From NCBI RefSeq assembly GCF_022953055.1, contig NZ_JALJEJ010000004.1:124001-188000 (forward strand): a stretch of 64,000 nt of DNA, given 5' to 3'. The notes under the pieces are model-generated. The model worked only from the letters and a program-made list of their open reading frames with translations. It did not search any database and had not been told where the DNA came from. This document shows positions 35,734-63,660 of the stretch, piece by piece; positions within the stretch are counted from its first letter, which is position 1; the number at the start of each line of letters is the position of its first letter. The translations under genes and the position numbers were made by a program. Source of the stretch: Mucilaginibacter straminoryzae. Its GTDB lineage: Bacteria; Bacteroidota; Bacteroidia; Sphingobacteriales; Sphingobacteriaceae.

Positions 35734-37044
35734 TTACCTTCCCACTGTGCTGATCTGCCTGAAACCGATCAGCTCTTCCCAACGTGCGCCAGGCGGACGG
35801 TAGTAAACCAATATTTGGTACGTATTCTGGGTTTCGAAATGATTACCTTCTGTTGTAGAAATATCCGGCTGATGGTTACTGTTCAGCATCACGTATTCGT
35901 AATCGTAAACGCCTTGCTTAAATAATGCGTTATAGTAGTATCGTCCGCGGGTAGCATCGTACTCCATTTTGCTTTGGGCATCGGTGCGGTAATTGTTGAA
36001 TTTACCAACCAGGTACACCTCCTGATCAGCAGAAGAACCGGAAGCTGCCAGATTAAAATAAACCCGTGCATAATCGGCATCCGTTTTAGGGTCGCGGCCT
36101 TCCTGGTTAAGGATGAAAAAGCCGCCATCATTATCATACTGGAACAGGTAATTATCCTGCCCGCGCTTTTGGTCTGTCAGCAGTAAAACGGTGTTGGCGG
36201 TATCGCGAAAGATACGGCCTATCTGCTCGGAGTTAAGCCGGAGCGAACGGATATCGAAATGCCGGAATTCGTTACCGCCAGGGAAATCATTAATCGCGAT
36301 GTCGTTATATACCAGCGAAGACCCGCGAATAAAAGTGGGCCGGGTATTCATTTGCCCCAACTCATACCGCCCATTTTGCATCACCAACACTCGGATATCA
36401 CTATAAGGATTCTGTACCGCCATACCCGCAAAATCTACCTGGAAGTTTACCTTCTGGTTAGTTTGCCGTAGGGCCACATTGGCCGATGGTACTACTTCTG
36501 CCTGGATACTTGCCCGCGAACTGACCACGTAAAAATGTTGTGTTAGCACTATTTTATTCGGGTCGCCATCCTCGTAAACTTTTAGCACATAATTACCCGG
36601 AAGCTTTGGCGCAATGTTCCTGTTGGGTAGCGTCAGTTCGTAATGGATGTACTTCTTCAGCGTAGTTACAGAGTAGCGGTAATCCATGATCCGGTCTTCC
36701 GTAAAACTTTGCAGGTATTCTGTTGGCGATATGCGCGACGAATTCCACGCGGCATCACAATGCTCGATGGTATAGCTAAAGTTCCGGCTATTGGTGCTCA
36801 GATCATCAAAGCTAAGCAAGAGTTGTTCCGCGCTATTCAGCGTAATTACCGGTAAAGAATTTTCTTTTGCCGCATTGTAAAACTGAACGGTTTTTATTTG
36901 CGGCTGAAAAGTTTGATCGGTATAGGGTTGGGCTGTAGAGGAAAGAGAAATTAATCCCAACATCGTCATTGCGAGGAACGAAGCAATCTTAATTCTTTTT
37001 GAAAGAAAGGTATTATTGGTGATTGCTTCTTCGCATTTGCTCAT
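35734..37044 (-). CDS. type IX secretion system plug domain protein (DUF5103)
   Basis: 436 residues from the ATG at 37044. From ~residue 40 (YTDQTFQPQIKTVQFYN, NSAEQLLLSFDDLSTN, YTIEHCDAAWNSS, and later YLVGKFNNY and YEYVMLNSN) it matches DUF5103, the plug that closes the SprA translocon of type IX secretion. The signal peptide core (RIKIASFLAMTMLGLISLSS) is partly encoded by a copy of the 91-bp repeat covering 36964-37054; a downstream start at 36969 leaves a signal that is too short, so I keep 37044. Located in the periplasm or outer membrane. No other T9SS genes nearby. Confidence 0.85.
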   Translation of the reverse strand: MSKCEEAITNNTFLSKRIKIASFLAMTMLGLISLSSTAQPYTDQTFQPQIKTVQFYNAAKENSLPVITLNSAEQLLLSFDDLSTNSRNFSYTIEHCDAAWNSSRISPTEYLQSFTEDRIMDYRYSVTTLKKYIHYELTLPNRNIAPKLPGNYVLKVYEDGDPNKIVLTQHFYVVSSRASIQAEVVPSANVALRQTNQKVNFQVDFAGMAVQNPYSDIRVLVMQNGRYELGQMNTRPTFIRGSSLVYNDIAINDFPGGNEFRHFDIRSLRLNSEQIGRIFRDTANTVLLLTDQKRGQDNYLFQYDNDGGFFILNQEGRDPKTDADYARVYFNLAASGSSADQEVYLVGKFNNYRTDAQSKMEYDATRGRYYYNALFKQGVYDYEYVMLNSNHQPDISTTEGNHFETQNTYQILVYYRPPGARWEELIGFRQISTVGR

Positions 37045-37430
37045 CGCAATGACGGTTTAAATGTGTTTAACTAAATATTGTCATTGCAAGACCTTTAAAA
37101 GGCCGTGGCAATCTGGTCGATTGTGATTATCCGTTGAGATTGCTTCGTCGTTCCTTCTCGCAATGACATTTCTACTTTAATTTCTTTTGTTCTTTATTTT
37201 AAAACAGCTGTCATTGCGAGACCTTGAAAAGGTCGTGGCAATCTGGGCCAATTGTGATTATTCGTTGAGATTGCTTCGTCGTTCCTTCTCGCAATGACAT
37301 TTCTACTTTAATTTCTTTTGTTCTTTATTTTAAAACAGCTGTCATTGCGAGACCTTGAAAAGGTCGTGGCAATCTGGGCCGATTGTACTTATCTGTTAAG
37401 ATTGCTTCGTCGTTCCTCCTCGCAATGACA
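36964..37430. repeat. four copies of a 90-91 bp palindromic element
   Basis: Copies at 36964-37054, 37079-37168, 37209-37299 and 37340-37430. Each begins TGTCATTGCGAG (first copy CGTCATTGCGAG) and ends in the complement CTCGCAATGACA or a close variant, with a second inner pairing between GGCAATCT and AGATTGC. Copies 2-4 repeat with periods of 130-131 bp including a nearly identical 40-bp linker, so they arose by tandem duplication. Copy 1 overlaps the 5' end of the T9SS plug gene. Similar ATTGCGAG...GAAGCAATCT repeats are common in Bacteroidota. Confidence 0.85.
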
Positions 37431-37441
37431 TCAAAGCAAAG

Positions 37442-39373: not shown

Positions 39374-39386
39374 CCCTTTTGAGCGT

Positions 39387-39557
39387 CAAGAGGCAAGAGA
39401 CAGGAATCAAGAAACAAGAGACAAGATTTACATAGAGTTAATGGCAACTAAAAAAGCCAGTAAGCAAATTTCTCGCTCCCTGGCTCTCTATTTTCTAACG
39501 CGATAAAATAAGACAAAGGAAACAAGGTCCTGCTTCTTGTCTCTAATATCTTGCTTC
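39387..39557. repeat. inverted pair of heptamer arrays without a gene between
   Basis: Left array 39387-39428: CAAGAGG, CAAGAGA, CAGGAAT, CAAGAAA, CAAGAGA, CAAGATT. Right array 39530-39557: CTGCTTC, TTGTCTC, TAATATC, TTGCTTC, which is the complement-strand form of the same unit (RRNCAAG). About 100 bp lie between, with a further weak run of the kind near 39470-39495 but no open frame of note. The right array ends 6 nt from the stop codon of the GDSL hydrolase gene. Confidence 0.75.
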
Positions 39558-48090: not shown

Positions 48091-48226
48091 GTCCATAGAT
48101 GATAGACCGTGGACGATGGATAAAAGACTAAAGACGACTATGGACCATAGACGATGGACAATAGATCATCGACTACAACCTATCTACTATAGATTATGTA
48201 TAACAAACGATGGACTATGGTCTATT
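48091..48226. repeat. long heptamer array (GACNATR), about 19 units
   Basis: In 7-bp register: GTCCATA, GATGATA, GACCGTG, GACGATG, GATAAAA, GACTAAA, (GAC), GACTATG, GACCATA, GACGATG, GACAATA, GATCATC, GACTACA, then weaker units, and AACGATG, GACTATG, GTCTATT at the end. It lies in the 352-nt gap between the divergent valS and M13 peptidase genes; the rest of that gap (48227-48412) shows nothing else definite. Confidence 0.75.
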
Positions 48227-58570: not shown

Positions 58571-59821
58571 ATGAAAAATACGTTCTTCGCCACACTCGTG
58601 CTGTGCCTTGCCTTCGGCGTTACAAAAGCCAATTATGCAACAGAAGGTGATGTTTTTAAACAAAAACCGACGTCAGCAAAAAAAGTTATCCGTCAAAAAA
58701 CTACTGTGCCCATAATCACAGGTGCGGACCAAACCGATCTGTATATAGATTATCTGAAAGGCAAAAACGTGGGCATGGTGGTGAACCAGACTTCAGTAAT
58801 CGGTAAAAGCCTGACACCCAGCCCCGACAGTTTACTGAAGCGTGGCGTGTTGATTAAAAAGATCTTCGGCCCTGAACATGGGTTTCGCGGCAATGCGGCC
58901 AATGGTGCAAGGGTAGCCGACGAAATTGATGCAAAAACAGGCGTCCCGGTAGTTTCGCTGTATGGCAAGCATTACAAACCTACGGATGAAGACCTGAAAG
59001 GATTAGATATCATTGTTTTCGACATCCAGGACGTAGGCACCCGCTTTTACACCTACATCTCTACCCTGCATTATGTAATGGAAGCCTGCGCAGAACACAA
59101 CGTAGAGTTGATGATCCTTGATCGGCCGAACCCTAACGGCTACCTGGTGGATGGCCCGGTAATGACGGATACTACTTATAAGTCTTTCGTAGGGATGCAC
59201 CCCATCCCGGCAGCCCATGGCATGACGATAGGTGAATATGCCCAAATGATCAACGGCGAAGGGTGGTTGAAGAACAAGGTTAAATGCCAGCTTAAGGTGA
59301 TTAAATTAGCCAACTACAAGCATAACATGGCCTACCAACTACCGGTTTGGCCATCACCAAATCTGAACAGCCAACTGTCGATCTTGCTGTATCCCAGCAT
59401 CTGTTTGTTTGAAGGGACTACGCTAAGCTTAGGACGCGGAACGCAATTCCCGTTCACTGTGGTGGGACATCCATCACTCAAAGGCAAATACACTTTCTCG
59501 TTTACGCCGATCAGCATTCCGGGCGTGAGCGATAACCCACCGCTAAAAGGGCAGACCTGCTACGGGATAGACCTGCGAAATTTTGATGCAAAAAAGTTAG
59601 TAGAAAGTAAAAAATTAAATTTGGCGTGGTTGATCGAATTATACAAAGCTTTCCCGGATAAAAGTCATTTCTTTAATGCGTATATTAACAAACTGTGGGG
59701 CTCAGAGGAGCTAAGGAAGCAAGTTGAAGCCGGGAAAACCGAGAGCGAGATCAGGCAGAGCTGGGAACCGGCGCTGAGCCGCTTCAAAGAAATGCGGAAG
59801 AAGTATCTTTTGTATCAATAG
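58571..59821 (+). CDS. exo-beta-N-acetylmuramidase NamZ-like (DUF1343)
   Basis: 416 residues from the ATG giving MKNTFFATLVLCLAFG (signal peptide); an upstream start at 58490 is not used. KNVGMVVNQTSVIG, IFGPEHGFRGNAANGA, VFDIQDVGTRFYTYISTL, LDRPNPNG and LSLGRGTQFPFTVVG are DUF1343 motifs in order. NamZ enzymes remove terminal N-acetylmuramic acid from cell wall fragments in the periplasm, so it should serve peptidoglycan recycling. Its stop codon's last base is the first base of the left heptamer array. Confidence 0.92.
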   Translation: MKNTFFATLVLCLAFGVTKANYATEGDVFKQKPTSAKKVIRQKTTVPIITGADQTDLYIDYLKGKNVGMVVNQTSVIGKSLTPSPDSLLKRGVLIKKIFGPEHGFRGNAANGARVADEIDAKTGVPVVSLYGKHYKPTDEDLKGLDIIVFDIQDVGTRFYTYISTLHYVMEACAEHNVELMILDRPNPNGYLVDGPVMTDTTYKSFVGMHPIPAAHGMTIGEYAQMINGEGWLKNKVKCQLKVIKLANYKHNMAYQLPVWPSPNLNSQLSILLYPSICLFEGTTLSLGRGTQFPFTVVGHPSLKGKYTFSFTPISIPGVSDNPPLKGQTCYGIDLRNFDAKKLVESKKLNLAWLIELYKAFPDKSHFFNAYINKLWGSEELRKQVEAGKTESEIRQSWEPALSRFKEMRKKYLLYQ

Positions 59822-60243
59822 TTAATAGTTCATGGAAGGTAGTTCATAGCAATTAAACAAATGGCATTCAGATTTGAGGATTTACACGTATGGAAAAAGG
59901 CCTTGGAGTTGGATAGCCGAATTAATCTACTTACAAAGACTTTCCCCAATGATGAGCTATTTGTGTTAACAGCACAAATTAAACGAGCTACAGATTCCGT
60001 TGTATTGAATATAGCGGAGGGTTCAACAGGCCAAACAAAAAAGGTATTTAAAGTATTCTTGTCATACGCTTTAAGATCAGCTATTGAAGTGGTAAGCTGC
60101 TTGTTTATCGCGCGAGAAAGAGGATTTATAGACAGTCGAAATTTTAAGGAATTATATAATGATTACGAGGAACTGGTAAAAATGCTTACAGCATTAAGAA
60201 AATCATTTTGATTGCTATGAACCATGAACGATTAACCATGAAC
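59821..60243. mobile_element. candidate element: S23-type gene inside inverted heptamer arrays
   Basis: Left array 59821-59848: GTTAATA, GTTCATG, GAAGGTA, GTTCATA, then GCAAT. Right array 60216-60243: TATGAAC, CATGAAC, GATTAAC, CATGAAC, preceded by ATTGC. The innermost 12 bp (GTTCATAGCAAT at 59842-59853, complement at 60211-60222) are a perfect inverted repeat, 7 nt before the ATG and starting on the last base of the stop codon. No direct target repeat is seen. Transcribed, the arms could form a stem with the gene in the loop, as in intervening sequences of 23S rRNA. Confidence 0.6.
59861..60211 (+). CDS. S23-type four-helix-bundle protein
   Basis: 116 residues, no signal. FRFEDLHVWKKALEL, FPNDELFVLTAQIKRATDSVVLNIAEGS and FLSYALRSAIEVVSCL are the hallmarks of the four helix bundle family (TIGR02436) first known from proteins encoded in 23S rRNA intervening sequences; it is related in fold to Avd of diversity-generating retroelements. 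The family forms pentameric, positively charged bundles that may bind nucleic acid; its role is unsettled. Here it lies between namZ and fmt and is closely framed by inverted 7-bp arrays. No reverse transcriptase or integrase is in the window. Confidence 0.9.
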   Translation: MAFRFEDLHVWKKALELDSRINLLTKTFPNDELFVLTAQIKRATDSVVLNIAEGSTGQTKKVFKVFLSYALRSAIEVVSCLFIARERGFIDSRNFKELYNDYEELVKMLTALRKSF

Positions 60244-61258: not shown

Positions 61259-61873
61259 TCATCGCGAACTCCGAAAGGAGTGTGGCGATCTCGGTTTAGA
61301 TAAGAAGAGATTGCCACGCTTCGCTCGCAAGGACAAATCCCTTATTTGGGCACACCCTGCGCTCATGCTTCGACAAGCATGACAAAGGCGGAATAAATCT
61401 ATCACATCTGTCACCCTGAGCTTGTCGAAGGGTCTGTAGGCTTTTCAAAAAACGCCAGGTTGCGCCGCTCTCTGCGAAGAGAATAATAATGGGTTGTCAT
61501 CGCGATCCATCGATTGAAGGAGTGGCGATCTCCTTCCTAAATCTATATTGAGATTGCCACGCTTCGCTCGCAAGGACAAATCCCTTATTTGGGCACACCT
61601 TGCGCTCATGCTTCGACAAGCATGACAAAGGCGGAAGAAATCTATCACACCTGTCACCCTGAGCTTGTCGAAGGGTCTGTAGACTTTTCAAAAAACGCCA
61701 GGTTGCGCCGCTTTCTGCGAAGAGAATAATAATGAGTTGTCATCGCGATCCGTCGATTGACGGAGTGGCGATCTCCTTCGTAAATCTATATTGAGATTGC
61801 CACGCTTCGCTTGCAAGGACGAATTCCTTATTTGGGAACATCCTACGCTCTTGCTTCGATATCCTCAGCATGA
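61259..61873. repeat. tandem repeat, 2.5 copies of ~240 bp
   Basis: Copies start at 61259, 61497 and 61740 with TCATCGCG (periods 238 and 243); the third is partial and diverges after ~100 bp. Each copy holds several short inverted repeats (GCGATCTC/GAGATTGC around CACGCTTCGCTCGC, and CATGCTTCGACAAGCATGACA and CCCTGAGCTTGTCGAAGGG, each written in full length here below 21 bases). The block contains no convincing gene; frames inside it are repeat translations. Confidence 0.85.
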
Positions 61874-62745: not shown

Positions 62746-62757
62746 AATCAGTGATTC

Positions 62758-62824
62758 GTTTATTTGTTCATTCGTTCATTAGTCATTGATTCTAATTTAC
62801 AAGTGAACCAGTGAACAAATGAAC
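62758..62824. repeat. inverted pair of 7/8-bp arrays without a gene
   Basis: Left: GTTTATTT, GTTCATTC, GTTCATTA, GTCATTG (62758-62788). Right: AAGTGAAC, CAGTGAAC, AAATGAAC (62801-62824), the complement form of the same GTTCATTN unit. Only 12 bp between. The right array ends on the last base of the class IV aminotransferase stop codon. The unit GTTCAT is the one that frames the S23-type gene. Confidence 0.75.
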
Positions 62825-63660
62825 TATAGCTTATTCAGCTCTTCCGTCAACGCACGACTGAGGTTATTGAAATACCGTTTTACACCATAACCCATTACCC
62901 ACTGTATCCCCCTGGCGGCATTGGTTAAGAAAACCTCGTCGGCTTCGTACAAAATGTGCGGATTTATCTGCGCTTCGGTAACCGGTATGTCCTGCTTCAG
63001 TGCCAGATCAATCACCACTTTACGCATAATTCCGTCCACACACCCTTCACTTAACGCGGGCGTATAAAGATGGTTTTGATACCACACAAAAATATTCGAA
63101 CTAATGGCCTCGCACAAAAAACCGTTCTGGTTCAGCAGAAATGCGTCGTCCAGTTTATTTTGTTCCTTATATATCCCCGCCATTACGTAGGTGAGCGAAT
63201 TGCAGGTTTTAAAATTTGAAAGATAATTTAGCGGCTTCGGCACTTCAGTAAAAATATCCATGATCAGCCCCTTGTTATTCATCTCATAATGCCAGTTTTC
63301 GGTGGGCTGAATTTCCATGCAATAGCCCATCTTATTCTGCGTGGGCGCATATAAGCCTTCGGCATCGCGGTAGACCGTCAGGCGGATACGGCCATTCCTA
63401 ATCTTATTGCGAGTAGCGAGGTCTGCCGATTTTTCTTTCAAAAACCAATCGTCCAGTTGCGAATATCCTTCAATCTTCAGCCCCTTCATTCCGTTCTGCA
63501 AACGTTCGGCATGAAGGTCGGGAAATTTCAACTGGCCCTTCACCAGCCGCATACTTTCAAAAAGGCCATCGCCGTATTTAAAAGCACGGTTACCGGTGGT
63601 CAGCACCGGTGCATCCGCAGGCAGATATTGGCCGTTATAATTGATAAAAAGGGGATTCAT
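62824..63660 (-). CDS. class IV aminotransferase (branched-chain aminotransferase/aminodeoxychorismate lyase type)
   Basis: 278 residues. FKYGDGLFESMRLVKGQL (~27-44), RIRLTVYRDAEG, FKTCNSLTYVMAGIYKEQNKLDDAFLLN (the PLP Lys lies in this region), and SEGCVDGIMRKVVIDLA are family motifs. The exact reaction, transamination of branched-chain amino acids, D-amino acids or lysis of aminodeoxychorismate to PABA, cannot be decided from sequence. 18 nt downstream of the RluA-type gene. Confidence 0.88.
   Translation of the reverse strand: MNPLFINYNGQYLPADAPVLTTGNRAFKYGDGLFESMRLVKGQLKFPDLHAERLQNGMKGLKIEGYSQLDDWFLKEKSADLATRNKIRNGRIRLTVYRDAEGLYAPTQNKMGYCMEIQPTENWHYEMNNKGLIMDIFTEVPKPLNYLSNFKTCNSLTYVMAGIYKEQNKLDDAFLLNQNGFLCEAISSNIFVWYQNHLYTPALSEGCVDGIMRKVVIDLALKQDIPVTEAQINPHILYEADEVFLTNAARGIQWVMGYGVKRYFNNLSRALTEELNKL

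Follow-up and report, generated by a model that had tools for sequence, protein, structure and literature searches.

Inverted arrays of short tandem units frame S23-type genes between protein genes of Bacteroidota and probably belong to a mobile element related to 23S rRNA intervening sequences

The intervening sequences (IVSs) of 23S rRNA genes in Coxiella, Leptospira, Salmonella, and other bacteria consist of an S23 (PF05635) open reading frame between complementary arms and are sporadic in distribution. Their origin and mobility have been an open question for more than 25 years (PMC4990558). In the Coxiella IVS, heptameric GACAGAT repeats lie in the 5' arm, RNase III cuts within that stem, excising the IVS without religation, and the S23 open reading frame was judged to be decaying (PMC4990558). 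Heptamers have also been described between genes. One report describes unexplained intergenic heptamers, GGGAATC in Xanthomonas, with a count of 70 inverted pairs for a single genome, and GGGGAYT in Nostoc, and suggests slippage as the source of heptamers (PMC4692102). TAACTGA heptamers lie between genes of Beggiatoaceae, cyanobacteria, and Bacteroidetes (PMC4679880), and the SPADE survey, which offers no clear hint of what they do, ranks heptamers first in abundance among the tandem repeats that separate genes in prokaryotes (PMC6344855). The passages searched in these three papers make no link to S23 genes, and our search, which covered mostly literature outside subscription journals, found no paper connecting S23 proteins with heptamers that lie between genes, outside rRNA.

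The element described here lies in a window of 64,000 nucleotides of Mucilaginibacter straminoryzae, the whole stretch of DNA that was analysed, to which all coordinates refer. Its sole gene encodes an S23-type four-helix-bundle protein of 116 amino acids (59861 to 60211, plus strand), with full-length profile matches to PF05635 (E = 3e-33, 114.7 bits, cut-off 33.8) and TIGR02436 (E = 6e-30, 103.7 bits, cut-off 24). This gene is the putative autonomous part of the element, and no transposase gene lies inside. The left arm (59821 to 59853, plus strand) is the 7-bp array GTTAATA GTTCATG GAAGGTA GTTCATA GCAAT, and the right arm (60211 to 60243, minus strand) carries the same unit inverted, ATTGC TATGAAC CATGAAC GATTAAC CATGAAC. 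The two share a perfect 12-bp inverted repeat, whose left copy, GTTCATAGCAAT, forms the inner end of the left arm (59842 to 59853, plus strand) and whose right copy, the reverse complement of GTTCATAGCAAT, occupies 60211 to 60222 (minus strand). A sequence-only reading of the window had reported heptamer arrays in opposite orientation with a common perfect 12-bp inverted repeat, one array starting at the final base of the namZ stop codon and the other at the final base of the stop codon that ends the S23 gene itself. This description proved correct to the base, the namZ stop (TAG) ending at 59821 and the S23 stop (TGA) at 60211. Only 26 perfect 12-bp inverted pairs spaced 13 to 450 bp occur in the 64 kb, mostly as overlapping matches in one other repeat cluster, so the arms exceed chance; the decisive evidence is their replication at other S23 loci.

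As in 23S rRNA IVSs, complementary terminal arms enclose the S23 open reading frame. The locus (L037) had no Rfam LSU match, and the element lies outside 23S rRNA genes, between namZ (PF07075/PF20732) and fmt (TIGR00460). The likeness to IVSs pointed out from the window alone holds in substance: besides the heptamers published for Coxiella, an Azospirillum S23 gene (L338) that Rfam places inside a 23S rRNA gene has arms that are 7-bp arrays. The present elements differ in that they lie between protein genes, occur as many divergent copies per genome, and are accompanied by gene-less array copies. Unlike the Coxiella reading frame, the S23 genes here are under strong purifying selection (median dN/dS 0.08 in 47 pairs).

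All seven PF05635 genes of this genome are flanked by inverted arrays, each copy with its own unit: AGTCCGTA (8 bp), AGTTGCG, CAAGAAA, GTTCATN, GTCATTG, GGTTAAT, and ATTCGAA. Arms of this kind were found in most of 166 S23 relatives, which were sampled mostly as best matches, so that certain subfamilies are over-represented. A strict test, requiring an array on each side of the gene and an inverted match of at least 9 bp, was passed by 78 of the 166 S23 genes, as opposed to 2 of 658 non-S23 genes in S23-carrying genomes and 0 of 886 in S23-less genomes; the arrays are thus far from equally common beside unrelated genes. Among 36 loci of the bacterial family, the share of flanks with a 7-bp self-match of at least 15/21 was 61% upstream and 56% downstream, versus 5% among control segments, and only periods of 7, 8, and their doubles were enriched. 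For 80 named Bacteroidota loci, a 7-bp period was seen in 50% of upstream and 62.5% of downstream flanks versus 2.6% of controls. Run in this way against control segments and other genes, the comparison of flanks for 7-bp autocorrelation and inverted orientation that the sequence-only reading had proposed places the periodicity far above background. Its 7-bp unit applies to the window element but fails as a general rule, as 8-bp and 6-bp versions exist. A single consensus unit for all elements was likewise rejected, since adjacent copies in one operon already differ.

The same architecture extends beyond Bacteroidota chromosomes. Seven-bp inverted arms surround S23 genes on plasmids of Nostoc, Pseudanabaena, Anabaena, Stanieria, and Geminocystis, and likewise S23 genes on metagenomic viral contigs. 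On plasmids of two different cyanobacteria (L331, L333), an S23 element with 7-bp arrays is inserted in a CRISPR-Cas locus, where it separates cas6 from cas4. The published heptamers are alike in consisting of 7-bp tandem units between genes, which in Xanthomonas often form nearby inverted pairs (PMC4692102), and the cyanobacterial S23 genes bear G-rich arms of the same kind. We predict that the published intergenic heptamer arrays are S23 elements.

Read inward, the unit is usually AG followed by 5 nt, and AG is its most conserved dinucleotide. The period was equal in both arms in 72 of 73 copies with two detected arms, and the median number of units per arm was 5, a count biased by a detection floor of about 4 units. 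Whole-flank RNA duplex energies discriminated poorly as a measure of the arms, and local arm matching was used instead. The two arms of one copy matched with a score of SW 18, versus 9 for swapped arms and 9 in direct orientation; swapping arms between copies of one site gave 11. When the left arm of one copy was compared with the right arm of another, the unit similarity of pairs from different sites rose steadily from 8.8 (below 40% S23 identity) to 17.8 (70 to 80%), and same-site pairs, at 19.0, stood little above the latter value. Unit length (6, 7, or 8) tracks S23 clade, with 4 changes on the S23 tree versus a mean of 12.5 and a minimum of 10 in 500 shuffles. Period 8 belongs to one S23 clade dispersed over several sites, and period 6 to a clade of about 36% identity in the metH-metF gap, where sister species have 7-bp elements. 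The window unit, GTTCATG/GTTCATA, is found again in a different genus, where it accompanies a related S23 at aguB-aguA (L261a). At the level of sequence, then, gene and arms behave as a single entity. The repeat unit, whose drift leaves the two arms of each copy matched, is tied to the lineage of the protein instead of to the site, in support of the earlier suggestion that protein and arrays form a single element.

Several loci show further arrangements. Two to three S23 elements with different units lie within a few kilobases at five loci (L259, L263, L267, L268, L269), several of them in one operon (e.g., of arg genes). Three S23 copies have an in-frame stop and still have their arrays (L022, L029, L030), and four loci have seemingly lost the right arm (L223, L226, L239, L245). 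At one metH-metF locus (L274), the 3' part of the S23 gene and the right arm are duplicated in tandem downstream. The right arm at aguB-aguA (L001 and L300) shares the reading frame of the downstream gene, and its translation could give the product of that gene an N-terminal extension (SYDLTDLRTHGLTDL).

Gene-less arrays with similar units had been noticed elsewhere in the window and are real. One inverted pair of the CAAGAAA/CAAGAGA type spans 39386 to 39556 (left arm about 39386 to 39427, right arm about 39528 to 39556; no strand assigned, as for the two that follow); among resident S23 units, that of L003 comes closest to it, though 17% of foreign sets give as good a match in this single-array test. 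A second pair, with an 8-bp unit, fills the gap between two genes (62751 to 62827, arms 62751 to 62784 and 62796 to 62827) and matches the arms of the resident S23 element L005. A third array (48093 to 48218) has GACNATR/AGTCCAT-type 7-bp units that by eye resemble the unit of sister-species aguB-aguA S23 elements. In the two genomes tested, 10 of 13 gene-less arrays here and 27 of 28 in G042 were closer to resident than to foreign S23 arms. Three S23-carrying genomes contained 47 intergenic 7- or 8-bp arrays in 864 kb, and six S23-less genomes contained 4 in 1200 kb. Genome-wide, inverted AG/CT heptamer pairs ranged from 16 to 319 in 11 S23-carrying genomes and from 1 to 12 in nine S23-less genomes, so the ranges are disjoint; a few inverted array pairs are present in S23-less genomes as well. 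The gene-less arrays are best read as non-autonomous relatives of resident S23 elements, which agrees with the earlier proposal of remnants or non-autonomous copies, given that their units match resident S23 arms and that they are abundant only in S23-carrying genomes.

Slippage offers a simpler origin, in which heptamer arrays are ordinary microsatellites, template switching within palindromes produces the inverted arms, and the S23 genes simply ride along. Between close relatives the arms do gain and lose whole units, and slippage has already been put forward for heptamers (PMC4692102). However, enrichment is confined to periods 6 to 8, mainly 7, and to S23-carrying genomes, units at unrelated sites vary in length and sequence in step with their S23 protein, and strict inverted arrays surround S23 genes and almost no others. 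We therefore regard slippage as a very improbable account of the whole.

The sites themselves speak for movement. Of 30 congeneric genomes that all preserve the namZ-fmt junction, this genome alone has S23 there; aligning the junction across relatives, as had been suggested, yielded S23-empty sites in 29 congeners. One of the 30 (L040) has at this place a gene-less inverted array pair with a unit other than that of the window. In congeners the metH-metF gap is either empty or holds S23 genes from different clades, whose units measure 7 or 6 bp, and S23 elements at metH-metF and aguB-aguA occur in about a third of 30 congeners. Genomes carry from 0 to 16 S23 copies. The occupied gaps are short and within operons, and often one gap is reused across many genera: fadB-fadA (40 loci), thiolase-acyl-CoA dehydrogenase (22), sucB-lpd (9), metH-metF (7), and argC-argD (6), the gene names being our reading of the flanking proteins. 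S23 is partly congruent with the neighbouring gene (rho 0.32; 0.83 at sucB-lpd), and since S23 genes are so often fixed at one operon site across genera, as at fadB-fadA, movement must be slow. No target-site duplication was evident at metH-metF or namZ-fmt between the relatives compared, which are too distant for this purpose and include no strain-level empty/full pair. Taken together, the sequence comparisons support an element that is mobile on an evolutionary time scale, with insertions polymorphic between species.

Among described mobile elements, miniature inverted-repeat elements (MITEs) and their autonomous partners are similar in that array-only copies share their ends with a gene-bearing resident element. 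They differ in that the ends here are tandem arrays instead of a fixed terminal repeat, in the absence of a transposase, and in that target-site duplication was not seen among the distant relatives compared. REP/RAYT (Y1) systems also have palindromic intergenic units, and Y1_Tnp (IS200/RAYT-type) co-occurs with S23 (17 of 21 S23-carrying versus 1 of 16 S23-less genomes). At 36978 to 37431 and 61307 to 61859, the window contains palindromic repeats of REP-like type with a period of 131 bp (TGTCATTGCGAG...CTCGCAATGACA) as well as a tandem repeat of 243 bp, and in many congeners without S23, similar REP-like palindromes fill the metH-metF gap. In contrast to REP/RAYT systems, the ends here are arrays, the inner gene is S23, and several array-rich genomes lack Y1_Tnp. 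A Y1/RAYT transposase was rejected as a required partner, being absent from the array-rich G042 and from the S23-carrying G046, G015, and G035; the correlation perhaps reflects shared permissiveness. Avd of diversity-generating retroelements belongs to the same four-helix-bundle superfamily as S23 and has the same pentameric fold. Reverse transcriptase, considered as a required partner by analogy with Avd, was also rejected: RVT_1 matches occurred in 9 of 21 S23-carrying and 8 of 12 S23-less genomes, and a profile search gave none in the present genome (G000), which in this respect is unlike a diversity-generating retroelement. No obligatory partner of S23 emerged from the RVT_1 and Y1_Tnp comparisons.

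The sequence-only reading had left open whether the element is mobile or serves RNA processing. In the latter case, the arms would owe their persistence to the stem that they form in the transcript. Cleavage of this stem by RNase III, or its binding by S23, would set the S23 mRNA free and uncouple the genes of the operon, and mobility would be incidental. The setting and the predicted fold lend themselves to this. S23 is codirectional with both neighbours at 129 of 137 loci, versus 54% of background gene triples, and elements lie between codirectional operon genes that, besides fadB-fadA and sucB-lpd, include carA-carB and nuoC-nuoD. The window RNA is predicted to fold arm to arm (-102.7 kcal/mol, z -3.2), and the stem that RNase III cuts in Coxiella contains heptamers (PMC4990558). 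The arm mismatches, however, show no excess of G-U (130 versus 178 of the A-C type; 1162 versus 1225 in the swapped control), so selection for a stem in the sense RNA is not supported. The S23 genes of three cyanobacterial plasmid loci (L330, L332, L336) are antisense to both neighbours, against the codirectional rule of Bacteroidota, gene-less arrays are found between convergent and divergent genes too, and the orientation bias may merely reflect a need of S23 for a host promoter. Thus, RNA processing as the reason for the arms appears unlikely, if clearly more credible than slippage. Maintenance of the match at the DNA level fits the sequences at least as well, and given that the mismatches do not lean toward G-U, we prefer DNA-level matching in a mobile element, with RNA processing as a possible consequence. 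Of the two possibilities first entertained, then, mobility is the better supported.

The properties of the protein raise another possibility. S23-type proteins fold as a pentameric ring, and the solved relatives 2gsc (XCC0516) and 2rld each contain five chains per entry. TRAP is a ring protein that reads AG-containing triplets at regular spacing. By analogy, S23 could be a regulator and the dispersed arrays its operators or attenuators, an idea consistent with the ring, the conserved AG, the median of five units, the match of gene-less arrays to the resident S23, and the purifying selection on S23. Conserved operators would not be expected to be as sporadic at orthologous sites as these arrays (one S23 and one gene-less array in 30 at namZ-fmt), nor would several S23 paralogues with different units be expected side by side in one operon, and the unit count suffers from the detection floor. 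We judge a regulon of this kind to be improbable. The correspondence between a pentamer and five units per arm is itself only suggestive, given the detection floor near 4 units.

We therefore consider a mobile, IVS-type element, in which the S23 protein acts on its own array and gene-less copies are non-autonomous, to be the probable explanation, with appreciable room for doubt. The ends of such an element would be the inverted arrays of about five 6- to 8-bp units, with S23 as the only gene. Judging from the coevolution of unit and protein, the S23 ring may recognise its own array, perhaps with one protomer per unit, and this recognition would allow the element and its gene-less copies to be copied or inserted. 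We know of no catalytic site or motif in S23, and for this reason the enzymes for copying or insertion are presumed to be those of the host or to be provided in trans. Insertions would persist mainly where they are harmless, in the stop-start gaps of operons or in a break-tolerant loop of 23S rRNA. Transcripts of the arms are predicted to form a long hairpin open to cleavage by RNase III, as others have shown for the Coxiella IVS (PMC4990558).

IVSs, and heptamers in one of them, were already known; what is new is the link of S23 proteins to intergenic heptamer arrays and to array-only copies. S23 gene, arrays, and array-only copies are statistically tied, and the protein lineage predicts the repeat unit. 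It is tempting, if still tentative, to assume that much of the heptamer content between bacterial genes, including the cyanobacterial, Xanthomonas GGGAATC, TAACTGA, and Bacteroidota repeats, may represent one superfamily of mobile elements that end in tandem arrays, which pentameric S23 proteins would read in a lineage-specific manner. Members that landed in rRNA might then be the classical 23S rRNA IVSs, and the way in which arms are copied and kept matched would be unlike known transposition. This would offer a first explanation for the 7-bp repeats dispersed between the genes of many bacteria, and two old puzzles, the intergenic heptamers and the origin of S23-bearing IVSs, would merge into one testable system.
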